DNA of 64,000 bases from Cyanosarcina radialis HA8281-LM2 (lineage in GTDB: Bacteria > Cyanobacteriota > Cyanobacteriia > Cyanobacteriales > CCAP-1448): positions 62,001-126,000 of the forward strand of contig JAHHHA010000002.1 of assembly GCA_019359615.1 (NCBI GenBank), written 5' to 3'. A program made the translations under genes and the position numbers. Positions 32,939 through 45,389 of the stretch are shown here, piece by piece (position 1 is the first letter of the stretch; every line of letters begins with the position of its first letter). Below the pieces are notes generated by a model, which was not told the origin of the DNA, made no database searches, and saw only the letters and a list, made by a program, of their open reading frames with translations.

Positions 32939-34000
32939 TCATTCGTTACCGTTTGGTGGATAAATCAAAATTTTGTAAGTTTCTGCTGTGGGAGCGATCG
33001 CTTTTTCTACAGCTTCAGAGAGATTTTTCAACGGGTAGCGATCGCTAATTAAGGCATCAACATCAATGCGACGATTAAATACAATATCGGTTGACATCGA
33101 TTGCAAGCGATAGGAAGAACTGTAGCTGCCCATCAAATCGATTTCCCGACGATAGAGAATGTTGGGGTTAATCGGAATTTCCACTTCATCGGGGAACTCG
33201 GCAAAAAATAAGATTTTGCCGCCTTTGCGGGTACATTCTAAAGCTTGAAAAAAGGCTTTGTCGCTGGGAACTGCTAGCAGCGTGGTATCTACGCCCACCC
33301 CATTAGTGAGGGCGTGTATTTTGCTGGGCAATTGAGGATCGCGGGCATCAAAAGCGGCTTCAGCCCCAACTGCTAGGGCTTTTTCAATTCTGGAGGGCAG
33401 TAAGTCAGTAGCGATCGCTTTGCCACCGAAATACTTCACTAACATGATAAACATTAGCCCGATCGGTCCTGCACCCGTAATTAACACCGTCTCGCCCGGT
33501 TGGACTTGAGCTTTTTTCACGGCTTTGAGGCAGCAATTAGTCGGTTCGACAAAACTAGCTTGCTCAAAAGTCACATCGTCGGGAATGGCAATTAAGCCGC
33601 CATTTTGCACGATATGCCCCGGCACTTTCACGTATTCGGCGAAACCGCCCCCACTGGGGGAAAATCCGGCTGTGGTGGTGATGTTTTTATAGACATCGCA
33701 CATGGAGAAATTATCGTTCAAGCAATAGGCGCAACGCATACAGGGAATGTGGTGCATCACCACTACTCGCTGCCCGACTTGCCAACCCGATACATCTTTA
33801 CCGATAGAGGCGATCGTTCCTGCCGTTTCGTGTCCAAAGATGCGCGGCGGTTCGTAGAGAGGATAGAGAATCTTTTTAATATCCGATTGACACAGCCCTA
33901 CTACTCGTACCTGTACTAGGACTTCATCTGCTGCCACCTCTGGGGTTGGCACCTCTTCGTAACTCAGTTGATTAACGCCTCGAAATACTTGTGCTTTCAT
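32939..34000 (-). CDS. Zinc-dependent medium-chain alcohol/polyol dehydrogenase
   Basis: A 353-residue MDR enzyme. The ATG giving MKAQVFRGVNQLSYEEVP is preferred to a TTG 11 codons upstream. Catalytic zinc ligands lie in VGLCQSD and FGHETAG, the structural zinc site is CMRCAYCLNDNFSMC, and the nucleotide loop is TGAGPIGLM. Overall it resembles threonine/sorbitol dehydrogenases. The substrate is unknown. It ends close to the small TM protein gene, with which it may be co-transcribed. Confidence 0.9.
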   Translation of the reverse strand: MKAQVFRGVNQLSYEEVPTPEVAADEVLVQVRVVGLCQSDIKKILYPLYEPPRIFGHETAGTIASIGKDVSGWQVGQRVVVMHHIPCMRCAYCLNDNFSMCDVYKNITTTAGFSPSGGGFAEYVKVPGHIVQNGGLIAIPDDVTFEQASFVEPTNCCLKAVKKAQVQPGETVLITGAGPIGLMFIMLVKYFGGKAIATDLLPSRIEKALAVGAEAAFDARDPQLPSKIHALTNGVGVDTTLLAVPSDKAFFQALECTRKGGKILFFAEFPDEVEIPINPNILYRREIDLMGSYSSSYRLQSMSTDIVFNRRIDVDALISDRYPLKNLSEAVEKAIAPTAETYKILIYPPNGNE

Positions 34001-34147
34001 TGCCTGGGGGTTGGTCGGGGTTTTGACTTTCAACTTAACATGAAGAGGACAAGTTTAAAAGTCGATCGATATTGGATTTTGGATTGGTTCTGCGTTATAA
34101 AGAACGAGATTGAAATCAGAAAATTTTCTCGATCGTCCGTAATTAAT

Positions 34148-34178
34148 GTAGGTTGGGTTGAGCGATAGCGAAACCCAA
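34148..34178. repeat. GTTGGGTT...AACCCAAA hairpin repeat, copy 3
   Basis: Variant with loop 'gagcgatagcg' and a decayed 3' arm (AAACCCAAAA). Confidence 0.7.
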
Positions 34179-34209
34179 AATTCCTGGATTGTGTTTAGAG
34201 AATATGAAT

Positions 34210-34911
34210 TTACCAGAGTATCAAAAATGACTCAAGCTGGTCGTTTAAAGACTTACCTAAATATAGAATACCAGCAACAGGATTTATTTCTCGAATAAGC
34301 AGCCAAATAATTGGTGTAGTATTAAGTTGCAAGCCCATTATTGTAGGATTATGCTTGCGAAAAGTATTGTATATTTTCTTGCGATCGGCTTTCCAAGAGC
34401 GATATTCGTTTAAATAATATGCTTGGGTGGTGTAGCACTCTAATATGGTTGAGAAAAAGCTACTCAAACTTTTATAACACAGGAAAGGATACCAATAACT
34501 TTTTATATCATATACCCATAGTTCTGAATAGCTTCGATTATGCTGGCATGAGACAGTAAAGAAAAAATAGCTGTCATAAGAAAACAATATTAATCCTATG
34601 TCAGCGGGAAAGCGATCGGGTTCTGGATCTATAAAAATCTCCTCGATCCTTGTAGACTCTATTATTGATTCTTCTAAAGGGTAGAATATCAAAAACTGTA
34701 AAAAGGAGAAGCCCTGTCCTAAAGCACCGTTACGCCATTGATATAATTCATAGACATCTTCTGTTATATTGATGTTAAGTTCAGATTTGTTTAATAACTC
34801 ATCAATTTGTTGGCGGCTCAATCCTGAAGTTGATAAACTACCTGCTCGATCGGGAGCGTTTACAGTTAGCCAGTCCAATATTCCTTGCAGCGTTGCCGTT
34901 AAGTTACTCAT
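34210..34911 (-). CDS. SMI1/KNR4 (SUKH) family protein
   Basis: A 233-residue protein. Its first half carries the SMI1/KNR4 pattern LSRQQIDELLNKSELNI...DVYELYQWRNGA, with FYPLEESI and IGLILFSYDSYFFF further on. SUKH proteins often serve as immunity proteins against contact-dependent or polymorphic toxins. No toxin gene is adjacent, so an orphan immunity or regulatory role is possible. ATG start, AT-rich relative to neighbours. Confidence 0.8.
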   Translation of the reverse strand: MSNLTATLQGILDWLTVNAPDRAGSLSTSGLSRQQIDELLNKSELNINITEDVYELYQWRNGALGQGFSFLQFLIFYPLEESIIESTRIEEIFIDPEPDRFPADIGLILFSYDSYFFFTVSCQHNRSYSELWVYDIKSYWYPFLCYKSLSSFFSTILECYTTQAYYLNEYRSWKADRKKIYNTFRKHNPTIMGLQLNTTPIIWLLIREINPVAGILYLGKSLNDQLESFLILW

Positions 34912-35036
34912 AAAGTGCTGAGAATGTTGGTGGCGATCGCTGATACATTATAAGCAGTTCAACTGTCACCAAGATAGTTTTGGTATGAGATTAAATTGTT
35001 TGACTGCCACGATCGATTGAGATATTGCCGTTATCG

Positions 35037-35106
35037 GTGTGGCAGGGTGGGTTCGATGGAAGGCTGATGGTTAGGAGACAACGGGGCTGGCAAAACCCGC
35101 CCCTAC
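35037..35106. repeat. GGCAGGGTGGGTT / AACCCGCCCCTAC element
   Basis: Inverted relative of the element near 32.4 kb, with arms GGCAGGGTGGGTT and AAAACCCGCCCCTAC about 40 bases apart. It lies just past the egtD stop. Confidence 0.6.
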
Positions 35107-35147
35107 AAATATGATGACTGTTCGATCGGATCTGATATTAAACAGGT

Positions 35148-36131
35148 CTAATTTGGCAGTTGCAGATAATGCAAACTAAACAATTGTTTTGGATCTGTCC
35201 AAACTCTTTGAGGCTGAAAGCCTGCTAAGTCTGCTAAATTTTGAAATTCATCAACACTATATTTGTAAGAATGTTCGGTACGGAGAGTTTCACCTTGTTG
35301 GAAAGGAATTTCCATGCCATCTATATGTACTACCTGAGTTTCAAGGCTGACGATATACATTTCGATTCGACCGATCGCGTTATAGAATGCCCGATAGCAG
35401 AACTTATCTAGATCGAAATCAGCACCGAGTTCTCGATTAATCCTAACGAGTAAATTGAGCGCGAAAGCCGCAGATATTCCTTGAGGATCGTCGTAAGCAG
35501 GTTCGAGGATTTCCTTGCTTTTTTTCAGATCTACGCCAATTAATAAGCTACCGTTAGGTTCTAATAGCATCGCCGTATTTTTAAGGAATTGCACTACTTC
35601 TGATGGTTCTAAATTGCCGATCGAAGATCCCGGAAAAAAAGCAACTTTGCGTTTATGCTTAATTGAATAAATATCTGGTAATCTTATCGGTTGAGTGTAG
35701 TCGGTACAAATAGCGATCGCCTGTAATTCAGGATATGCTTCGACCAGATTCGTACACGATTCGTACAAATGCTGTTTAGAAATATCCAGCGCCACATAAG
35801 TTGGTAAGTTCGGCATCGTCGCATCCAAAATAAACCGAACTTTCTGACTGCTACCGCTGCCAAATTCAATTAGCACTCCGTCTTTGACTAAGGCGGCAAT
35901 TTCGTTGCCATAAGTTTGCAGGATATCGATTTCAGTGCGGGTTAGATAATATTCGTCTAACGTACAGATCGCATCGAATAATTCTGCTCCTCGTTTGTCA
36001 TAGAGAAACTTAGCAGAAATAGCTTTTTGCTGTTGCTGTAACCCTTGCAGAACCTCAGCTTTGAAATCATCTACAGGAGGATGAAAATCGTAGAACTCGA
36101 TCGCAGATTTAATACTTAAAGCGGCAGACAT
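35148..36131 (-). CDS. egtD: L-histidine N-alpha-methyltransferase
   Basis: A 327-residue SAM-dependent enzyme that trimethylates histidine to hercynine, the first step of ergothioneine synthesis. Family features are KFLYDKRGAELFDAICTLDEY, the SAM loop VLIEFGSGSSQKVRFILDA, and FFPGSSIGNLEPSEV. The start at MSAALSIKSA is preferred; a TTG 21 codons upstream adds non-family sequence. egtB lies 149 bases upstream on the same strand, so the two form a pathway pair. Confidence 0.94.
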   Translation of the reverse strand: MSAALSIKSAIEFYDFHPPVDDFKAEVLQGLQQQQKAISAKFLYDKRGAELFDAICTLDEYYLTRTEIDILQTYGNEIAALVKDGVLIEFGSGSSQKVRFILDATMPNLPTYVALDISKQHLYESCTNLVEAYPELQAIAICTDYTQPIRLPDIYSIKHKRKVAFFPGSSIGNLEPSEVVQFLKNTAMLLEPNGSLLIGVDLKKSKEILEPAYDDPQGISAAFALNLLVRINRELGADFDLDKFCYRAFYNAIGRIEMYIVSLETQVVHIDGMEIPFQQGETLRTEHSYKYSVDEFQNLADLAGFQPQRVWTDPKQLFSLHYLQLPN

Positions 36132-36179
36132 GAAATTGCTCCTAGTTGTTTTTCCCAGCAGAGGCACAAAGATGTAGAT

Positions 36180-36252
36180 AAGGCTTTTTGCCAAAGTCGA
36201 TAACTCATCTATTCCTATCTGTGTTTATCTGTGTGCATCTGTGGTTTTTATG
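36180..36252. repeat. ACCACAGATGCACACAGATAAACACAGAT repeat, copy A
   Basis: On the minus strand this reads as 'aaccacagatgcacacagat' then 'aaacacagat', 'gatgagttatcgactttggc'. A second copy lies before devC near 49.5 kb and includes the same GATGAGTTATCGACTT tail. It fills most of the egtB-egtD gap. Confidence 0.7.
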
Positions 36253-36280
36253 AAAAAATAGGCCTTTGCCAAAGGTCGAT

Positions 36281-37552
36281 CTACATTGCCAAGCGAATGC
36301 CGGAAAATTGCCAGCGAGTATTAGGAGGGAAAAAGTTGCGGTAAGAGGAACGGATATGATCGGGAGGCGTGACGCAAGAACCGCCGCGCAACACCATTTG
36401 ATTGCACATAAACTTACCGTTGTATTCCCCGACTGCCCCTGGTGCTGGCTGATATCCTGGATAGGGGAGATATGCACTTTGCGTCCATTCCCAGACATCG
36501 CCAAAAATTCCATCGGGGCGGGTTATCCCTGCTGCTGGTATAGGATGGAGTTGCCACGATTCTAAGAAATTGCCTCGCATTGGCACTTGGCTGGCAGCAA
36601 CTTCCCACTCGGCTTCTGTGGGCAAGCGTTTGCCCGCCCAGCGAGCATAAGCATCGGCTTCGTAAAAGCTAACATGACAAACCGGATCGCGATCGCTCAC
36701 TTGACGCATCCCTGTTAGCGTCATTACCCACCAATCACCATCAATTTTTTCCCAGTAAAGCGGTGCTTGCCATTGTTGGGTTTGAACTGTCGCCCAACCT
36801 TCCGACAGCCAATATTCTGGCTTCTCGTAGCCACCAGCGGCGATAAATTCTAGATATTCGCCATTAGTTACCAGTCGCGCCGCCAGCCAATAGTCTTGTA
36901 GGTAAACTTGATGTCGGGGAAGCTCGTTATCGAAACTAAACCCTTCTCCTGTATGCCCGATGGGGTAGAGTCCTCCTGGGTAGTCTAACCATCGTTCTCG
37001 CAGGTTAGCATCTCCAGTAACAACAGGAGGTACGATCGAGCTATAAGCCGGACGTAGGGGGTTCCCAGCGAGAATGTGTTTGATATCGGTGAGCAGCAAT
37101 TCTTGATGTTGCTGTTCGTGATGGAGTCCTAGAACGACTAGCTCTTCTAGCCTTGAATCTCCCGATTGTTGTGCCAGTAACGAAAGCATCGCTTCGTCTA
37201 CATAAGCCCGATAGCGATAAACTTCTTCTACCGTCGGGCGAGATAGCAGTCCCCGCTGATGGCGGGGATGGCGTTCTCCTACAGCTTCATAGTAGGAATT
37301 GAACAAATAGCCAAACTGGGGATGAAAAACCTCATAGCCGCTCAGGTAAGGCACGAGCAAAAAAGTTTCAAAAAACCAAGTAGTATGCGCTAGATGCCAC
37401 TTCGGCGGACTAACATCCGGCATACTTTGAATAACATAGTCTTCGATCGCTAGCGGTTGACAAATTCGATCGCTCAGTCCTCGAACCTGCTGGTAGTAAT
37501 CGGTCAGCGAACGACTCTGACTGCATTGCGAAATAGATGTTTCTGTCTGCAT
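36281..37552 (-). CDS. egtB: Ergothioneine biosynthesis sulfoxide synthase EgtB
   Basis: A 423-residue non-heme iron enzyme. The N-terminal DinB-like domain has WHLAHTTWFFE (His56) and LHHEQQHQELLL (His145, His149), matching the three-His iron site. The C-terminal FGE-sulfatase/C-type-lectin domain has FSFDNELPRHQVYLQDYWLA, RLPTEAEWEVAAS, GDVWEWTQS and LRGGSCVTPPDHIRSSYRN. It joins a sulfur donor to hercynine. No egtA or egtC lies nearby, so cysteine may be used directly, as in other egtBD-only bacteria; this is an inference. The ATG (MQTETSISQ) replaces a TTG four codons earlier. Confidence 0.93.
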   Translation of the reverse strand: MQTETSISQCSQSRSLTDYYQQVRGLSDRICQPLAIEDYVIQSMPDVSPPKWHLAHTTWFFETFLLVPYLSGYEVFHPQFGYLFNSYYEAVGERHPRHQRGLLSRPTVEEVYRYRAYVDEAMLSLLAQQSGDSRLEELVVLGLHHEQQHQELLLTDIKHILAGNPLRPAYSSIVPPVVTGDANLRERWLDYPGGLYPIGHTGEGFSFDNELPRHQVYLQDYWLAARLVTNGEYLEFIAAGGYEKPEYWLSEGWATVQTQQWQAPLYWEKIDGDWWVMTLTGMRQVSDRDPVCHVSFYEADAYARWAGKRLPTEAEWEVAASQVPMRGNFLESWQLHPIPAAGITRPDGIFGDVWEWTQSAYLPYPGYQPAPGAVGEYNGKFMCNQMVLRGGSCVTPPDHIRSSYRNFFPPNTRWQFSGIRLAM

Positions 37553-37990
37553 GAGAGTTTTCAACTCGGTGATGTTTTGGATAGAAACCGCAGGCTTTCA
37601 CCTATCGGCATGAAGGCAAAATTAGAGTCCGGCTAATCGATCCCTATACTAAATGCTCTCTTATTCTTTAGAGATTGGCAACAATCTTGATGGTGGGATT
37701 CACCGTACCTCTCAAGATCGAAAACCTCCCATCTCTTTGAAACCATATTAAATTTTGAGCAACATAGAATCGATTTCCTACAAGTTAACAGACGTTTAAC
37801 TTGAGATGATTATCAAGGTAAATCTAGAGGTAAAAATGACAGCCAGCTAAGAAAGATAGTTTAGTAAACCGAGAATTTTGTGAGATTTTGTTGAGGCCGA
37901 TTTCAACTAATTTTAAGATTTGCATATCTGACGAATGAGGCGATCGTCAATCTATAATTTAAAAGAATAGATAAATTATGAGGTGCGATC
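37553..37990. other. Divergent intergenic region, nothing recognised
   Basis: About 440 bases separate egtB and the pentapeptide gene. It is AT-rich with no repeat or RNA seen. It should carry both promoters. Confidence 0.5.
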
Positions 37991-38383
37991 GTGTCCGAAC
38001 TAACTCCGCACTCTTCAATTAAGACAGCGGCCGAACTGCTAGAGATGTATGCCGCCGGGAAGCGAGATTTCTCTGGAGTAGAGTTAGGTGCAGTTAACCT
38101 GAGCGGAGCCAATCTCAAGGGGGTCGATCTAAGTTATGCCGATCTCAGTGCTGCCAATCTGCAAGGTGCTAATTTGAGAGGCGCTGACTTGAGTTATGCC
38201 AATTTCAGCGAGGCGAACTTGACAGGGGCAGATTTGCGAGGTGCGATCTTTATCGGCACGAATTTCCAAAATGCTCTACTAGACTCAGCCGATTTGAGAG
38301 AAGCCGATTACGATCCCGACTCTACTCGATTTCCTGTTGATTTCGATCCTCTCAAAGCTGAGATGAAAGCAGACAAAAGTTGA
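37991..38383 (+). CDS. Pentapeptide-repeat protein
   Basis: A 130-residue protein with GTG start (no in-frame ATG upstream). After a helical N-terminus (IKTAAELLEMYAAGKRDFSG) come about 13 A(D/N)LxX repeats from residue 30 to 110, such as AVNLSGANLKGVDLSYADL and ANLRGADLSYANF, forming a right-handed quadrilateral beta helix. The acidic tail is DFDPLKAEMKADKS. These are abundant in cyanobacteria and generally of unknown role. No signal peptide. Confidence 0.88.
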   Translation: MSELTPHSSIKTAAELLEMYAAGKRDFSGVELGAVNLSGANLKGVDLSYADLSAANLQGANLRGADLSYANFSEANLTGADLRGAIFIGTNFQNALLDSADLREADYDPDSTRFPVDFDPLKAEMKADKS

Positions 38384-38409
38384 TAGTGAAAGAAACATCG
38401 TCGATCGGG

Positions 38410-39357
38410 TTATCGTAATAAATTCTGCATTTTTCTTCGAGGATTTTTCCCGAGCTTCCCACGGTTTCGTCCGAATACTTTGACGACTAAAAAGTAATAG
38501 GTAGATAAGAGGGCAATCGAAAAAATTTGCGTGCCCAAACCGATGTGCCAAAACTCAAACGTATCTTCTCCACGATCGAGGGCTAACACTAACCCTGCAA
38601 TTCTGATGACGTTAAAGACTACAGCTAGAACAACTCCTGAAACAATTAGCTTGGCTGTTTGCAGTCTGTTTTTCTGAGACATAATTCCGTATAACAATCC
38701 GGCTGTGCCTAAAGCTATGGCCATCTCCAAGCCATTACAAGACCAACCGACCTCAACATGGACGGTGGGTAATTCAACCGATTTACCGACCAAAGTAGCA
38801 TCATAACCAATAGCTTGCAACAGCCACACGCTCATCTGAGCCATCACCCCTTCCAGGAAATCAACCGGAGTCCAAGCTCGCCACGCATGACCGATTAAAA
38901 TATTGCCACCTGGATGGGCGCTAAAAAGCAGCAAAAAAGTTGGGCAGGGAAATTGTCTAAAAAATTTTATTCCCCAAGAACTCAAGGCGATACCAACTAA
39001 AATTAATACCCACAGCAAAGCTTGCGACCAAACAGCAAAGCGGCTAAAGGGAAACAGAATGACAGAGAGCGCCATCAGGATATATCCCAATCGGCGCTCT
39101 CTAATTGAAGCTGTTAATCCAGCTAAGTGCTCTCGTCGATCCCACAACCGTTTCAATCCGAAATACGCAGCAGCAATTACTAGGATTGGAAATAGCTCTC
39201 CTGTAGCGATCGAGGGTAGGAGTGCGGCAAACCAAACAGGTAAGTAACACAGGCCGACCAAGAGAACGCAGAGGGTAATTAAATTATGAGGAATTTTGAG
39301 ACTCTGCTGGATGGAAGGCCACAAACTTTTACAAGCTGCTATGGCTTTAATTTCCAT
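38410..39357 (-). CDS. Cyanobacterial exosortase (cyanoexosortase)
   Basis: A 315-residue membrane protein with about eight hydrophobic segments. The exosortase triad can be read: Cys207 in VEVGWSCNGLEMAIAL, Arg252 in FNVIRIAGL and His271 in FEFWHIGLGTQIF. Exosortases cut proteins carrying C-terminal PEP-CTERM-like signals and attach them to the envelope or release them. A gene for a small protein with such a signal lies 191 bases upstream on the same strand, so this seems to be a dedicated sorting pair. Confidence 0.88.
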   Translation of the reverse strand: MEIKAIAACKSLWPSIQQSLKIPHNLITLCVLLVGLCYLPVWFAALLPSIATGELFPILVIAAAYFGLKRLWDRREHLAGLTASIRERRLGYILMALSVILFPFSRFAVWSQALLWVLILVGIALSSWGIKFFRQFPCPTFLLLFSAHPGGNILIGHAWRAWTPVDFLEGVMAQMSVWLLQAIGYDATLVGKSVELPTVHVEVGWSCNGLEMAIALGTAGLLYGIMSQKNRLQTAKLIVSGVVLAVVFNVIRIAGLVLALDRGEDTFEFWHIGLGTQIFSIALLSTYYFLVVKVFGRNRGKLGKNPRRKMQNLLR

Positions 39358-39491
39358 GCTAAATCAAATTTTTTAAAACTTTCCTTATACTAGAATACCC
39401 ATTAAGTTTCAATAAATATCAGTTTTTTCTTCGTATTGGCGATCGCCCATACAGTTCTAGAGCTTACGCACGAGTAGCGCCTATCTATTCG

Positions 39492-39522
39492 GCAAATAGG
39501 GGCGCAATAGATTGCGCCCTTG
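39492..39522. repeat. TAGGGGCGCAAT / ATTGCGCCC palindrome module
   Basis: AATAGGGGCGCAATAGATTGCGCCCTT forms a hairpin. The same module is embedded in the MITE-like elements near 27.9 and 30.1 kb and in the ndhE-ndhG gap. Confidence 0.6.
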
Positions 39523-39548
39523 CCCTCGATATACTTACGATTTATAAA

Positions 39549-39821
39549 CTAAAGACTTTGCTCGTCGAGAGCAACTTGATTCTGCTGTTTCCGGCGCTTG
39601 TAGAGCATAGTTCCGCCGCCAAGAAGGATTAAAGCTGGTAACAAGGCAGGTGTAGGTACTGACTTACATTTCTTTGGTTGCCACCGCGATGGTACGCACC
39701 CATTATTTTGCGGATTACCAGGAGTATTACCTCTTTGGGCGTTAGCAGGAGCAATAGATAAAGCGCCCAGAGCGATCGCAGCTAAGATCGCAATTAGGTA
39801 CTGACGTTTTAAAAGCATCAT
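39549..39821 (-). CDS. Small secreted protein with PTPA/PEP-CTERM-type sorting signal
   Basis: A 90-residue protein. A signal peptide (MLLKRQYLIAILAAIALGAL to about ANAQ) is followed by a short mature region with two cysteines (NNGCVPSRWQPKKCKSV). The C-terminal signal is VPTPALLP, one hydrophobic helix (LPALILLGGGTMLY) and the basic KRRK cluster. This is the PTPA variant of PEP-CTERM signals found in cyanobacteria. An extra 12-residue tail follows the basic cluster. The exosortase gene is just downstream. The mature part would be only about 26 residues, so it may be a small surface peptide or model substrate. Confidence 0.8.
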   Translation of the reverse strand: MMLLKRQYLIAILAAIALGALSIAPANAQRGNTPGNPQNNGCVPSRWQPKKCKSVPTPALLPALILLGGGTMLYKRRKQQNQVALDEQSL

Positions 39822-39946
39822 TATTCCGTCGTTTAAAAAACTGACTTTAAGGTAACACAGCTTTTAAAAAAAGGGGGGGGGAAATTAAATAAATATATAG
39901 GACCTACTATTAAATTTGCTTAGTTCTGAGAACTAGGGGATCGCAG

Positions 39947-40453
39947 CTAGCTTTGGCTTGAGATCTGCTCGATTAGATGTACCAGTTCTGGCAAGATCAG
40001 CTTTTCTACAGCCAGTTTTACCGCACCAGTAGAACCAGGAATAGAGAAGATTAGCTGGTGTTGGTAAACTCCGGCAATGGCGCGAGAAGCGATCGCTCGC
40101 GAACCAATTTCTTGATAGCTCAGATAGCGGAATAACTCGCCAAATCCTGGCAAAGTCTTTTCTAACAGCCCTTCTAAGGCATCATGAGTAGTATCTCGTG
40201 GGGCAATTCCAGTACCGCCATTGAAGATGACAGCTTCGATCTGGGAATTGCCTATAGTTACAAGCTGCTCTCGGATCTGGCTGGGTTCGTCTTTGATAAT
40301 GGCGTAAGAGGCGATCGCATGACCAGCATCGAGCAATAACTGTTGAATTAGTTGACCGCTTTTGTCGGTTTCTGACGATCGAGTATCGCTAACAGTAATG
40401 ACAGCACAATTCACTGTCTTTGCCGATTTATTTGGGTGAGGCTGGTAAAGCAT
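39947..40453 (-). CDS. moaB: MoaB/MogA-family molybdenum cofactor biosynthesis protein
   Basis: A 168-residue MPT-binding protein. Key motifs are AVITVSDTRS, VIFNGGTGIAPRDTTHDAL and GSRAIASRAIAGVYQHQLIFSI ending in PGSTGAVKLAVEKL. The family adenylylates molybdopterin (MogA) or has a related role (MoaB) in molybdenum cofactor synthesis. No other mo genes are adjacent. ATG start behind an AACACTT-type tandem repeat. Confidence 0.93.
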   Translation of the reverse strand: MLYQPHPNKSAKTVNCAVITVSDTRSSETDKSGQLIQQLLLDAGHAIASYAIIKDEPSQIREQLVTIGNSQIEAVIFNGGTGIAPRDTTHDALEGLLEKTLPGFGELFRYLSYQEIGSRAIASRAIAGVYQHQLIFSIPGSTGAVKLAVEKLILPELVHLIEQISSQS

Positions 40454-40461
40454 TTTCAGTA

Positions 40462-40505
40462 AGTGTGGAGTGTTAAGTGTTGAGTAAGAAATGAAAAGTG
40501 TTGCG
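40462..40505. repeat. STRR (GTGTGGAGTGTTAAGTGTTGAG type)
   Basis: 'gtgtggagtgttaagtgttg' continues as 'agtaag' and 'gaaaagtgttgcgtgtag', the reverse strand of the AACACTTAACACTC family. It lies directly upstream of the moaB start. Confidence 0.6.
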
Positions 40506-40590
40506 TGTAGAGTATATGGTTATTCTATTTTCTCCTCCTCTCTCCTCCACACAAACTAATTTATAGGTTTCACGGGAAGTTTCAAAGAAA

Positions 40591-41079
40591 ATGGCAATGA
40601 AACTTACATTTCGACAACTTGAGGAAGAAGACGCGCTAGCTATCCTTAACTGGCGATACGCTTTCCCTTATGATTACTACAACTTCGATGCTACTGCTCT
40701 TCAAGAGAACTTGCCCTATATGCTCGACCCTGAAAACGCTTTTTATGCGATCGCGAACCTGCAAGGAGAACTCGAAGGCTATTGCTCTTTCGGCGCGGAT
40801 GGTCGAGTGCCAGGTGGAGACTACACCGCTGAAGCGCTTGACATCGGTATGGGAATACGACCAGATTTAGTCGATCGGGGATGTGGCAAGCTGTACGCAC
40901 AAGCTGTGGCTGGATATGGAGCCGATCGATATCGAGTACAACAGTTACGGGTAACGATCGCGCAGTTCAACCAGCGGGCGCAACGGGTGTGGGAACAATT
41001 AGGATTCGAGCGGGTGGAGAAGTTTGTCAAACTCGGTACTACAGAAGAATTTGTGATTATGGTTGGTGCAAATGAATAG
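40591..41079 (+). CDS. GNAT-family N-acetyltransferase
   Basis: A 162-residue acetyltransferase of the RimJ/RimL type. Visible are the N-terminal FRQLEEEDALAILNWRY, the acetyl-CoA region DIGMGIRPDLVDRGCGKLYA (GxG-type loop slightly altered), and the C-terminal LRVTIAQFNQRAQRVWEQLGFERV. The acceptor (protein N-terminus or small molecule) is unknown. ATG start; the next gene begins 43 bases downstream on the same strand. Confidence 0.88.
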   Translation: MAMKLTFRQLEEEDALAILNWRYAFPYDYYNFDATALQENLPYMLDPENAFYAIANLQGELEGYCSFGADGRVPGGDYTAEALDIGMGIRPDLVDRGCGKLYAQAVAGYGADRYRVQQLRVTIAQFNQRAQRVWEQLGFERVEKFVKLGTTEEFVIMVGANE

Positions 41080-41121
41080 ATCGTCGTGGGTTGGTGTTTT
41101 TGAAAAGTAGGAGCGTGTTGT

Positions 41122-41556
41122 ATGTACCAGAATTTCCCGATCGAGATCTTGAAAGCAAATCGATTGCTGCGATCGCCCAATGAAGTTGCCCTATTTGAAC
41201 AAACTTTAGAACAACTCGTCCAAAATCCTAACTCGGCGGATCTGCCTAGCTTACATCTAATTCTGGATGATACTTGCGATCGACCGGAAGTAATGTTTAG
41301 CTTGGTGCATTTCTTGGAATCTTTTGACGTGCAGGAACAGTTACAAGCATTTATTCAGGTGATGCCCGATCTCGTCAAGCAAGCCCCAGAATGGACGGCG
41401 ATTCTGCATTCTCGGATAACGAACGAGCCGATCGCACAAACTGCATTTGAGGAGATATTGCGATCGATGGATACTGAGAAACGAAGCGAGATCGATCGGT
41501 TACTCTCATTAGCTTTAAGAACAGCGTCTGCAAAACAAATAACACAAGTTGCTTGA
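41122..41556 (+). CDS. Conserved hypothetical, possibly Imm30-like immunity protein
   Basis: A 144-residue, all-helical, acidic protein. Segments such as SADLPSLHLILDDTCDRPEV, MFSLVHFLESFD and APEWTAILHSRI resemble, from memory, the Imm30 group of polymorphic-toxin immunity proteins. No toxin is next to it. It stands at the edge of the accessory island. Family assignment is weak; that it is a real gene is likely. Confidence 0.6.
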   Translation: MYQNFPIEILKANRLLRSPNEVALFEQTLEQLVQNPNSADLPSLHLILDDTCDRPEVMFSLVHFLESFDVQEQLQAFIQVMPDLVKQAPEWTAILHSRITNEPIAQTAFEEILRSMDTEKRSEIDRLLSLALRTASAKQITQVA

Positions 41557-41564
41557 TTTAATTA

Positions 41565-41640
41565 GATATTTATCTCGATCGCCTGACTTCCGATCGCTTC
41601 TTGAAAGCGATCGATTGCATAGTTATACCGGATTTTTAAT
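41565..41640. repeat. Island repeat, partial copy 1
   Basis: TATCTCGATCGCCTGACTTC and GCTTCTTGAAAGCGATCG share words with the fuller copies near 42.05, 43.35 and 45.84 kb. It lies between the Imm30-like and DUF433 genes. Confidence 0.5.
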
Positions 41641-41681
41641 GGAGATTTGCTATTATCAAAACAGTGAATTTGAAGGTGCTG

Positions 41682-41999
41682 ATGACACTAGCAATTGTGG
41701 CCGAACCTGCTCCTCTAAGGGCAAACGAGGATGGTGCGATCCTGGTCGGCAAAACTCGCGTTACCTTAGATACTGTGCTGGCTGTCTTTAAGCAAGGCGC
41801 GACGGCAGAGGAAATTGTTTGTCGATATCCGTCGCCGAACTTAGCTGATGTTTATGCCACGATCGCTTTCTATCTCAATCATGAATTGGAAGTAGAAGCT
41901 TACTTGCAACAGCGACAGCAGCGATCGCAAGAGATCCGGGCAATGAATCAAGCGAGATTTGACCCTCAAGGTTTGCGCGATCGCCTGCTGGCCGGCTGA
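41682..41999 (+). CDS. DUF433 antitoxin without adjacent toxin
   Basis: A 105-residue protein. The DUF433 core is GAILVGKTRVTLDTVLAVFK plus QGATAEEIVCRYPSPNLADV and YATIAFYLNHELEVEAYL. DUF433 proteins normally precede a DUF5615 PIN-like toxin. Here the stop is followed at once by the island repeat and no toxin-like frame is present, so the antitoxin appears orphaned. The ATG was chosen over an upstream GTG. Confidence 0.85.
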   Translation: MTLAIVAEPAPLRANEDGAILVGKTRVTLDTVLAVFKQGATAEEIVCRYPSPNLADVYATIAFYLNHELEVEAYLQQRQQRSQEIRAMNQARFDPQGLRDRLLAG

Positions 42000-42039
42000 A
42001 CAGAGCAAGCAGGATGTTAAAACTTCTTGCGGCTTGGTT

Positions 42040-42140
42040 GTTATCTCGATCGCCATCAAACATCTCAAAATCATCTGTTGTAATTCGATCCGATGCGATC
42101 GCCTCACCTATCATCATTTTCAAGAAGCGATCGCCTATTT
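42040..42140. repeat. Island repeat, copy 2
   Basis: 'cgatcgccatcaaacatctc' through 'ctgttgtaattcgatc' and 'ttttcaagaagcgatcg' match the copy near 43.35 kb with few differences over about 85 bases. It lies where the DUF433 toxin gene would be expected. Confidence 0.75.
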
Positions 42141-42233
42141 CATAGTTAGCGGCACGCGACCGAGACGGTCATATTAAAAAAATTACCATCCCGCCTCTTG
42201 CTATTTTTGGGGTTTCAAAATTTTGAGGTAATG

Positions 42234-42809
42234 CTACACGCCTGTAGGCGTATTTTGACCTCTAAACTGGCTCGGTGTAAGTATTGGAATTCCCTTGACC
42301 TCTTCAACAATAAGTTGGCAGATGTATGTGTCTGCCTCAAGCAAAATATCGTAAGGTCCCAAATTAATAATTTCTAGGGTTATGGTTCCCTCAAAACCTG
42401 CATGAATAGTTGGAGCAGTAAAGTGAACGAGAATACCACATCTTGCTAGCGAACTTTTACCTTCTACACGCGCCGAATAGCATATACCTTCATCATTATC
42501 TTGAATGGGGAAAGATACTCTTTCTCTTGTTTGTCCCAAGATAAAGCAGTTTGGTTTAAGCAAGAAAGGACGCTCTGAAGTAATCTCGTGCTGCTCGGAA
42601 TTATTCGTTAGGATCTTTGCCAAACTTCCCCTAGAAGGTCTTAGGGTCACTGTATCATCTTTTTTGGGAACAGCAATTCTTGGTGCTAGGCGCAAATCAA
42701 CAGAACTTGTGTTAAATGGAGGTAATGCAGGATCTAGTCCAGCTATGCGATCGATTCTGAGTCTTCCAAGGTTAATTGCCCGAACTATCTCAATATTACT
42801 CAGAATCAT
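42234..42809 (-). CDS. dcd: dCTP deaminase
   Basis: A 191-residue trimeric deaminase that converts dCTP to dUTP. Signatures are NTSSVDLRL (33-41), RVEGKSSLARCGILVH (114-129) and AGFEGTITLEI with the likely catalytic Glu146. Length and motifs fit a normal enzyme of pyrimidine nucleotide supply. Dcd relatives are also known phage-defence effectors that drain dCTP, and this copy lies in an accessory island, tightly linked (two bases) to an unknown gene. Housekeeping or defence role cannot be decided from the sequence. Confidence 0.92.
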   Translation of the reverse strand: MILSNIEIVRAINLGRLRIDRIAGLDPALPPFNTSSVDLRLAPRIAVPKKDDTVTLRPSRGSLAKILTNNSEQHEITSERPFLLKPNCFILGQTRERVSFPIQDNDEGICYSARVEGKSSLARCGILVHFTAPTIHAGFEGTITLEIINLGPYDILLEADTYICQLIVEEVKGIPILTPSQFRGQNTPTGV

Positions 42810-42811
42810 AA

Positions 42812-43102
42812 CTAAGCTAGCTGCTTCACTTGTTCGCGAGGGAATTCAAACCAATGGTTTCCTGTTTCTAAAGATTCTTTAGGTAAATACATCAAGATTT
42901 CTTTTCCTGTTTCCTGCTCGCCTGGCAACTTAACTTTTAAATAAGCTTTGTTATGCTCCAAGTCAATACTTTCCAAGTCCGATGACTCAGCAAAGAGGGA
43001 GAGGACTTTACCAGAAGTTAGCTCGATCTCCACAGCATACTCATCTGGAAACATACCAGGAGATATAATACAAGGGACGAGGGCGGTTGAAGACTTTTCC
43101 AT
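42812..43102 (-). CDS. Unknown protein translationally linked to dcd
   Basis: Not recognised. From the chosen ATG it has 96 residues: a Ser/Thr-rich start, then beta-rich CIISPGMFPDEYAVEIEL, SGKVLSLFAESSDL, KAYLKVKLPGEQETGKEILM and WFEFPREQVKQLA. The frame is open for another 29 codons upstream (GTG at 43189); that part starts with a short hydrophobic run, so the true start is uncertain. The stop lies two bases before dcd, implying co-translation and a related job. Confidence 0.65.
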   Translation of the reverse strand: MEKSSTALVPCIISPGMFPDEYAVEIELTSGKVLSLFAESSDLESIDLEHNKAYLKVKLPGEQETGKEILMYLPKESLETGNHWFEFPREQVKQLA

Positions 43103-43319
43103 GGGGATAGCTTTGAGTTTGACAGTTGCGCTTTTGGTCGGACACAGCACTAATGCCATTGTACTGACTAAGACTAGGGATGATACCACTAAATTGCGCT
43201 AAAAACACTATATGTAGCGCAATTTTACTTTGACTAACACTATAAATTCAGACTTACTCGTATAATATCTATAGTTATGCCGCCAAGCCCAGCATTTTTA
43301 AATGGACGATCGCTCGTTG

Positions 43320-43440
43320 CAGTCTGGCGATCGAGATAACATCTGCGATCGCCATCAAACATCTCAAAATCGCCTGTTGTAATTCGATCGAATGCGATCG
43401 CCTTATTCCCCGTTTTCAAGAAGCGATCGAGTAATTGGAG
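43320..43440. repeat. Island repeat, copy 3
   Basis: 'gcgatcgccatcaaacatct' through 'cctgttgtaattcgatc' and 'ttttcaagaagcgatcga'; nearly the same as copy 2. The rest of the gap between the dcd partner and the DUF2188 gene shows nothing else recognised. Confidence 0.75.
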
Positions 43441-43549
43441 TAGTTAATTCTTTTTGCCGTTGCAAGTTAAGCTGTAGAAAAAGGTGAATGAGCGGGTAAA
43501 AGTAACTTCCCCGCCTATTGAATTAATTCAAAAAGAAAGATGAAACAAA

Positions 43550-43801
43550 TTAACCTTTGGAAGAGGTTGGGTCTTTGCTACGGGGATACGTTCGTTCCTC
43601 TTGATATTTTCCATCTAATTTTTGAATCTTCACTGAGCCGCCCTCTTTCCCAACAGCTTGTTCTAGCACACCGCCTTGGATTGCCTCTGCTTTTGTGTCA
43701 AAGGTTTTCACTGTCCGGTCGGTTTTATCGTTGGTTAAAGTCCATGTTTCTTTGCGATCGTCGTAGCTCAGTGTGTATTTTGTGAGATTGTCTCTAGCCA
43801 T
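43550..43801 (-). CDS. DUF2188 family protein
   Basis: An 83-residue protein. The DUF2188 pattern is visible as WTLTNDKTDRTVKTFDTKAE, AIQGGVLEQAVGKEGGSVKI and QKLDGKYQEERTYPRS (the conserved EERTYP). A small, probably soluble protein of unknown function; relatives often lie on mobile DNA. ATG start. Confidence 0.85.
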   Translation of the reverse strand: MARDNLTKYTLSYDDRKETWTLTNDKTDRTVKTFDTKAEAIQGGVLEQAVGKEGGSVKIQKLDGKYQEERTYPRSKDPTSSKG

Positions 43802-43934
43802 ATTTATTTTTACTCATTCGACAATTTACTGATACTAATGTACTATAAAGTTTTCTGGCATGGCAACTACCACCTCAATAGGCTAACGTCTCAGTGTAGT
43901 GGACGAATGAGAGCGACTAGTAAGACAACTAAAA

Positions 43935-44651
43935 ATGCTGAAAAATCTTGAACGTCTAAAGGTAGCTTTAGAAGAATGGCTAATTCGTAATGGTCTAGAT
44001 ACGGATACCCGCTTTTACACCATAAGTGAATGGAAGGCTCGGCAAGAAGAGTACCTGAATGACGCTGAGTTAGTGCTTGTTTTTGAAAGCAATCTTTACA
44101 TAATGCTGAATTACGGTGGAGATATTGAAGAGTTTGAAGACTACATCGAGTCATTTGGCTATTACTACGAGCAAGGTCATCCTTGGAATATGGGTTTTTA
44201 TCCAATCCCAGATTATGACTACAGCCCAGTTATAGGTAGCTATTCCCAAAAGTTACGAGATGAGCGTTGGAAGAGGAAGGCAAAGCTAGTAAAGGAGAAA
44301 GCGGGCTGGAAGTGCCAAGATTGCGGAAATTCTGCTAACCTCGAAACGCATCATTGCTATTACACCAGTATTAGCAGTGGCCATGAACCGTGGGAGTATC
44401 CTCTCAGTGCCCTTCGGTGCTTATGCCACGAGTGTCATGAAGCTAGGGCAAAATCTGAAAGTCGAATGAGGGCCTATTTAGCAAGACTTACCACTGCTCA
44501 AATTGATTCTTTGATGCGTGGACTCGATCGTGCTTTCTATTGGTTTGAAGCAGATGCTGTAATTGAATTACTCTCAGGTCTAGGACACAGCGATGAGAAG
44601 ATTTATTTGGCAATTCTTGAGTTGCTGAAGAGAAGAAATGAAGATGTGTAG
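43935..44651 (+). CDS. HNH-type nuclease with novel N-terminal domain
   Basis: A 238-residue protein. Residues 120-170 form an HNH/zinc-finger module: CQDC (127-130), the His139-His140 pair in LETHHCYY, WEYPLSALRCLCHECH with Cys164, Cys167 and His168. It follows the typical lead-in LRDERWKRKAKLVKEKAGWK. The first 100 residues (EEWLIRNGLDTDTRFYTISE and GDIEEFEDYIESFGYYYEQG) match nothing I know and could be a sensor domain. The C-terminus is helical. DNA cleavage is the expected activity. The SLATT-like gene follows 147 bases later. Confidence 0.8.
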   Translation: MLKNLERLKVALEEWLIRNGLDTDTRFYTISEWKARQEEYLNDAELVLVFESNLYIMLNYGGDIEEFEDYIESFGYYYEQGHPWNMGFYPIPDYDYSPVIGSYSQKLRDERWKRKAKLVKEKAGWKCQDCGNSANLETHHCYYTSISSGHEPWEYPLSALRCLCHECHEARAKSESRMRAYLARLTTAQIDSLMRGLDRAFYWFEADAVIELLSGLGHSDEKIYLAILELLKRRNEDV

Positions 44652-44798
44652 ATGGATATGAGTCTAACAAGTGCGTACACTCAGAACGGAGGTTTACGCG
44701 ATCAGTTATATAGTTATACCGTATTTTTGCGATTTAACCCTACCGAACGGTATTCTATAAGCTAGTCTTGAGTTTAAGGTTGCTTAGCTAGAGGTTCA

Positions 44799-45389
44799 AT
44801 GCTTAACCAGGAAGACGCAAACAAGATCCGACAGCAGAAGCTCGATGCACTAGTCGCTATGCAACTGCACAGGAAACAAATTCGTAATCTTCAACAAACA
44901 AATCGGATTATTGAGTTTCTCTCAATAGCAGTGCCAGCTTTTTATCTCACCCCTCGGTTGTTAGCGAAAGGCACATTACTTGCAAACTTTATTGATAATT
45001 TGGGTGAGATTCTAGCTGCAATTTTGTTGGTACTAGTAATCTTAAGACTCGTCAATAAATGGCAAGATAATGAGATTAAACATGCGATTATGTCGCGGCG
45101 AAATGCAGATACTGCTTATGAGGCAGATCGGCTTTTGCAAAGCCAAGCTGCTAATAGTGAAGCTGTAGAACAGTTTCTAAGGAGTGTTAAAGATGTTAAT
45201 GCTGAGGACGAAGCTTTATTGCTTAATGTAAAAGGAGGAGATAGGCAGAAAGCATACAGAGAGGCCCTCAAACAGTTTAGCCCCACCACTTCCACTCTTT
45301 GTCCTATCTGCGGAGCCGATCCTTGGAAATTTACTCCAGGAAGCTGTGAAGCTTGCGGTGGTACTCCAGCGAAACGAAGAACTAATTAA
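44799..45389 (+). CDS. SLATT-like two-TM protein with CxxCx(11)CxxC zinc ribbon
   Basis: A 196-residue membrane protein. A helical N-terminus is followed by two TM segments (about 38-54 and 69-85), a charged helical region (90-160), and a C-terminal zinc ribbon with Cys168, Cys171, Cys183 and Cys186 (CPICGADPWKFTPGSCEAC). This pattern matches 'mobilome CxxCx(11)CxxC' proteins, and the helix-TM-TM-helix layout resembles SLATT domains, predicted pore-forming effectors of bacterial conflict systems. Both comparisons are from memory. A GAGG ribosome site precedes the ATG. A small zinc-finger gene follows by 60 bases. Confidence 0.8.
   Translation: MLNQEDANKIRQQKLDALVAMQLHRKQIRNLQQTNRIIEFLSIAVPAFYLTPRLLAKGTLLANFIDNLGEILAAILLVLVILRLVNKWQDNEIKHAIMSRRNADTAYEADRLLQSQAANSEAVEQFLRSVKDVNAEDEALLLNVKGGDRQKAYREALKQFSPTTSTLCPICGADPWKFTPGSCEACGGTPAKRRTN

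Follow-up and report, generated by a model that had tools for sequence, protein, structure and literature searches.

A cyanoexosortase C gene paired with a very small two-cysteine PTPA-type protein in Cyanosarcina radialis HA8281-LM2

The gene for a cyanoexosortase C (CrtC) in Cyanosarcina radialis HA8281-LM2 lies directly beside a gene for a 90-residue PTPA-type protein with a short core containing two cysteines, and a PTPA-type neighbour recurs throughout the branch of CrtC loci to which this one belongs. The favoured reading, held at a probability of roughly 0.6, is that enzyme and neighbour form a dedicated exosortase-substrate pair, in which CrtC would free or anchor a small, disulfide-looped surface or secreted peptide of a recognition type. 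The window, by which is meant the whole analysed stretch of 64,000 nucleotides from contig JAHHHA010000002.1, was considered together with the rest of its genome and with CrtC loci from other genomes; the features are collected in Table 1. The original prediction had proposed a dedicated exosortase with a very small adjacent substrate; the pairing is supported, but the genome encodes three other exosortases and a second PTPA-like protein, and the arrangement is not unique to this genome.

Table 1. Features of the CrtC-peptide locus and of the related orphan gene elsewhere in the genome
Feature	Position	Strand	Basis
crtC-like gene, cyanoexosortase C, 315 aa; C207, R252, H271	38410..39357	-	NF033464, PF09721, alignment, AlphaFold2
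Perfect 9-bp inverted repeat, spacer of peptide gene and crtC	39500..39519	.	sequence
90-aa mini-peptide precursor, putative PTPA-type substrate	39549..39821	-	ORF; NF033465; upstream small PTPA-type gene kept beside related crtC
Signal peptide, residues 1-28, end ANA	39738..39821	-	AxA rule in script
26-residue core, residues 29-54, C42 + C52	39660..39737	-	two cysteines in 5/5 two-cysteine-group peptides
PTPA-CTERM-like signal VPTPA-helix-KRRK, residues 55-78	39588..39659	-	NF033465 match, residues 55-81
12-residue tail beyond KRRK	39552..39587	-	ordinary length for class
Orphan 75-aa PTPA-like paralogue, contig C9	L128:6599-6826	-	between GH57-hydrolase-like gene and IS-type transposase (by eye)

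The window enzyme scored 287.8 bits against the NCBIfam CrtC model (NF033464, cutoff 225), placing it in that family, with CrtA as the next-best NCBIfam model at 65 bits and a match of 104.6 bits to PF09721. The triad of Cys207, Arg252 and His271, which we take to be the catalytic residues of exosortases and which had been correctly picked out in the original prediction, was present without exception across an alignment of 60 CrtC sequences. An AlphaFold2 model of the enzyme had a mean pLDDT of 92.6 and was nearly all-helical, the class being characterized by about eight membrane helices; there was no solved relative detectable by sequence, nor any Foldseek match at E 0.001 or better. In the same alignment the window CrtC carries changes at several positions that other CrtCs conserve to 90% or more, and its terminal branch in the tree is long (1.38). 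Given these changes, the long branch and the sub-cutoff score of the adjacent peptide, the window system could be either decaying or specialised, which counts against the favoured reading.

The adjacent protein reads as a leader with an AxA site (ANA at residues 26-28), a PTPA motif, a hydrophobic helix and a C-terminal basic cluster, in agreement with the signal peptide and VPTPA-helix-KRRK end first ascribed to it. Its match to the PTPA-CTERM model (NF033465) reached 22.4 bits, or 22.3 in the genome-wide search, under the cutoff of 29. The mature part had been put at about 26 residues with two cysteines, which holds, and nine residues separate C42 from C52. The 12-residue tail beyond KRRK had been singled out as unusual, a view that does not survive comparison: in a set of 72 distinct PTPA-type proteins from the vicinity of CrtC genes, 2-15 residues (median 9) follow the basic cluster, with 10 or more in 25 of the proteins, so that tail length was dropped as an oddity.

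Under the favoured reading, which applies the working model of Parrett et al. for CrtB (described below) to this pair, the precursor would be exported by the Sec pathway and then lose its signal peptide after residue 28, and the C-terminal helix and KRRK cluster would tether it in the cytoplasmic membrane. CrtC, by way of Cys207, His271 and Arg252, would cut at or near VPTPA, and the cut would either release a peptide of about 26-31 residues or join the peptide to an acceptor, which, if there is one, would probably be a component of the envelope or of a polysaccharide. C42 and C52 would most likely form a nine-residue disulfide loop.

The peptide gene is the first of the two on the minus strand, with 191 bases between it and crtC. 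The inverted repeat within this spacer is absent from the list of T-tailed terminators, and it could be an RNA hairpin that would uncouple the message levels of the two genes. A terminator behind the peptide gene was considered and dropped, the search having given only a weak six-pair stem within the gene end (3 found against 1.8 expected). There is no HpsJ-like gene in the 12 kb around the window crtC (33001-45000). The surrounding genes include an apparent ergothioneine pair at 35148-37564 (minus strand), in which an egtD-like gene (PF10017, 357 bits) accompanies one resembling egtB (FGE-sulfatase with DinB_2), and a pentapeptide-repeat protein on the opposite strand facing crtC (37991-38383, plus strand). 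Upstream of the window peptide gene is a molybdopterin-type gene (PF00994; 39947-40453, minus strand), and a MoaC-like gene, identified by eye, occupies the corresponding upstream position at one related locus, L044 (L044:4583-5089); this shared neighbour is perhaps a coincidence, since the related locus L045 has no such gene.

Genomes with a CrtC above cutoff numbered 4 of 386 sampled across the phylum, 6 of 388 from the order and 16 of 217 from one family; among 60 relatives the window's own genome was the only one, and these samples overlap with one another. A scan of genome contigs yielded 58 loci, 56 of them with a CrtC by phmmer (all except L100 and L101), and the surroundings of every CrtC were scanned by script for HpsJ-like proteins and for tails of PTPA type. 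The tree comprised 65 distinct, long enough CrtC rows and two outgroup exosortases, leaving out L043 (a near copy of L094 with a stretch of N), the duplicates L102, L104, L106, L108, L113 and L114, the too short L093, L095, L096, L098 and L099, and L100 and L101 as not CrtC. Two kinds of locus were apparent: in 40 of the 65 rows an HpsJ-like gene lies no more than 800 bp upstream, in 15 a PTPA-type protein is encoded directly upstream on the same strand (at 38-313 bp), and 10 show neither arrangement.

The 15 rows with a PTPA-type protein directly upstream are the 15 distinct loci of one branch, made up of the window, four two-cysteine loci (L044 from Nostocales HT-58-2, L045 from Tolypothrix campylonemoides, L103 and L105) and ten Nostoc-type loci. 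The small gene is thus not absent beside the orthologous exosortases of this branch, and the idea of a pair unique to this genome was dropped. None of the 15 has the HpsJ-like gene, against 40 of the 50 other CrtC loci in the tree, and the split that sets the 15 rows plus the two outgroup exosortases apart from those 50 has support of 100/96. By path, the nearest rows to the window CrtC are the four two-cysteine relatives, the placement of a branch this long being unsure, and the five two-cysteine rows grouped as one clade in just 8% of bootstrap trees. The upstream PTPA-type proteins of the 15 loci are 82-142 residues long, except in L115 (224 residues), and those at the remaining CrtC loci are mostly 150-365 residues; short PTPA proteins of 55, 86 and 99 residues in HpsJ-type loci look, in our judgement, like cut open reading frames and were excluded from the count of tiny substrates. 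Carriage of CrtC on phage or plasmid DNA was also considered and dropped, as 82 pattern matches in viral contigs included none that was confirmed, and 72,556 plasmid records held no relative at E 1e-20.

Among the five two-cysteine peptides, the window's included, the cores are 26, 27, 26, 39 and 29 residues long and every one has exactly two cysteines. For comparison, the mature parts of 52 ordinary PTPA proteins, drawn from HpsJ-type loci and others, contain 21 cysteines in 8763 residues (0.0024 per residue), and 10 of the 52 likewise have two. Protein identity between the five cores is 0.23-0.35, and between the tails of the four relatives 0.92-1.0. The turnover is most readily seen in L103 and L105, from two species of one genus, where the DNA of crtC and of the upstream region is 93% identical in each case, that of the leader 94% and that of the tail 87%, with downstream identity of 83% per column or 92% of aligned bases. 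For the core, 57 of 200 shuffles scored as well as the real alignment, which is therefore no better than expected from shuffled sequence. Across 251 windows of 90 columns along these two loci the median identity was 0.94, and deep dips were limited to the core (minimum 0.27) and the spacer beyond crtC, the dip just after crtC being an insertion or deletion in that spacer rather than a coding change. In the remaining five pairs among the four relatives, 77, 42, 44, 25 and 0 of 200 shuffles were as good, the last being L044 and L045, whose cores are still related. Silent cassettes as donors of the cores were dropped as a candidate: searches with the L103 and L105 cores in the four genomes (G713, G721, G722 and G723) found no second copy of either, other matches being weak (E 0.066 or worse).

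Nostoc-type peptides of the same branch have cysteine-free cores with identity of about 0.53-0.73 between relatives at similar CrtC distance, and as these cores are conserved, rapid core change does not characterise the branch in general, which counts against the favoured reading. Such change is shown for the four two-cysteine genomes only, the window's family having no close relative for comparison. The Nostoc-type cores (L042, L050, L051, L056, L107, L109-L112 and L115) have in common a stretch rich in tryptophan, SLEIQWFLGFIPW or a variant of it, and are otherwise polar. Rapid turnover of the core in relatives, with its length, its paired cysteines and the adjoining sorting signal all retained, would point to a surface or secreted peptide of a recognition type, and not to an enzyme or a structural protein. 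A more far-reaching interpretation, that the system delivers a hypervariable two-cysteine peptide whose cassette-like core, framed by a fixed leader and exosortase signal, is swapped or quickly remade from one close relative to the next, is regarded as doubtful; such a system would resemble those of self-recognition, signalling or antagonism, and the exosortase would be its enzyme of release or display.

The genome that contains the window (6.5 Mb, 65 contigs) is rated 100% complete. Four exosortases in it exceed the Pfam cutoff: by NCBIfam, two are CrtA (271.8 and 328.2 bits), another is XrtO (584.8 bits) and the fourth is the window CrtC. The PTPA model gave two matches there, both sub-cutoff, namely the 90-residue peptide and a 75-residue paralogue on contig C9, so that the initial description of one exosortase with one peptide is inexact in both of its halves, while the many other PTPA substrates that would have refuted the pairing were not found. 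The C9 protein has a cysteine-free core of 11 residues and does not fit a disulfide-loop product, which counts against the favoured reading. Its tail is identical to that of the window peptide at 20 of 27 residues, with dN of 0.23 and dS of 2.0, and the tail is therefore under constraint. The only other genome of the window's family that was available had neither CrtC nor a match to the paralogous peptide, in favour of the pairing. Three further PEP-CTERM-like matches in the window's genome, at E up to 10, could be served by CrtA or XrtO. XrtO itself adjoins a 913-residue TIGR02921 PEP-CTERM protein (L131:2929-7404) in what is probably a second dedicated pair, similar to the CrtC pair in that an exosortase lies beside its probable own target and different in that this target is a large integral membrane protein.

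An alternative explanation is that the system is in decay, CrtC and its substrates having shrunk and drifted, with the tiny proteins as leftovers of what were once larger substrates. The long CrtC branch and altered near-invariant columns, the 11-residue core on contig C9 and the sub-cutoff PTPA match would all suit such a history. However, both window reading frames are open, the triad is intact and the enzyme is confidently modelled, the paralogous tails differ mainly at silent sites, and the pairing and small size are common to 15 branch loci, some with strong family scores, making decay unlikely.

The small protein could also be a partner of CrtC rather than its cargo, i.e. a membrane microprotein of two helices with a helping, regulatory or stabilising role towards the enzyme, which would accord with conservation in the leader and tail around a core that is nearly free in four genomes, with a C9 copy that is barely more than leader plus tail, and with the adjacency of crtC and the small gene where no other genes are shared. 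The tail nevertheless shows the three-part architecture typical of sorting signals, scores as PTPA-CTERM above cutoff in relatives, and the core retains its cysteine pair, or in Nostoc a conserved stretch, so that a partner role is considered decidedly unlikely.

The favoured reading of a dedicated pair is further informed by the number of candidate substrates per genome, obtained by running the PTPA model on 30 genomes with a limit of E 0.1. In each of the four Nostocales genomes with two-cysteine peptides the model has a single match, which scores above cutoff (45-51 bits) and is encoded beside crtC. Among the Nostoc-type genomes, ten in all, the number of matches is 0-2 per genome, every one sub-cutoff, and in G774 the sole match is not the neighbour of crtC. 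A general enzyme, with its neighbour just one of many substrates, would suit the 15 other, HpsJ-type CrtC genomes, which have 1-22 PTPA matches (median 4, with two or more in 14 of the 15). It is very unlikely here, where the window's genome has two matches, both sub-cutoff and counting PTPA-motif substrates only, and the four relatives one each.

Relative to known systems, the pair is like the CrtC, PTPA-CTERM and HpsJ-like C (NF050019) families of NCBIfam in enzyme family, catalytic residues, signal type and linkage of enzyme to substrate. It differs from the usual CrtC loci in that its branch has no adjoining HpsJ-like gene, in the sub-cutoff PTPA match of the window, and in having one tiny substrate (82-110 residues in the two-cysteine group, 90 in the window) instead of several proteins of about 200 residues. 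As defined by Haft and Varghese (2011, PMC3237569), a dedicated sorting system is one enzyme with one target in adjacent genes; that type having been defined there, the pairing as such is not new. The single adjacent target is likewise found in the four relatives, with one protein above cutoff each, and the window's genome departs from that type by a second tiny PTPA-like paralogue. The target is also far smaller than sorted proteins usually are, and in the relatives its core changes fast.

Two further systems offer partial parallels. In Flavobacterium johnsoniae, loss of either XrtF or its adjacent partner abolishes biofilm (PMC10936215), again a variant exosortase with a neighbouring partner gene, but in another lineage and with a partner that is not shown to be a substrate. 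For CrtB of Nostoc punctiforme, Parrett et al. (PMC12188702) propose a model that runs from Sec export through signal peptide removal and tethering by the C-terminal helix to exosortase processing, and that gives the fate of the processed product as unknown. CrtB is likewise a cyanobacterial exosortase, with Sec export, tail removal and surface delivery in the working model, and it differs in having about 35 PEP-CTERM proteins per enzyme and a linkage to polysaccharide genes. A search of the literature that covered few subscription journals returned nothing on PTPA-CTERM, on an exosortase with hpsJ or, by title, on hypervariable PEP-CTERM peptides; within what could be searched, three features are new, namely so small a substrate with two cysteines, the lack of an HpsJ-like gene and the turnover of the core.

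The action of exosortases on their substrates is poorly known, partly because most of these enzymes serve many large proteins. A pair of one enzyme and one peptide of about 26 residues would be the smallest possible test case for exosortase function, and if the fast-changing core proves to be general, it would represent a new cyanobacterial route by which a variable peptide is displayed or sent.
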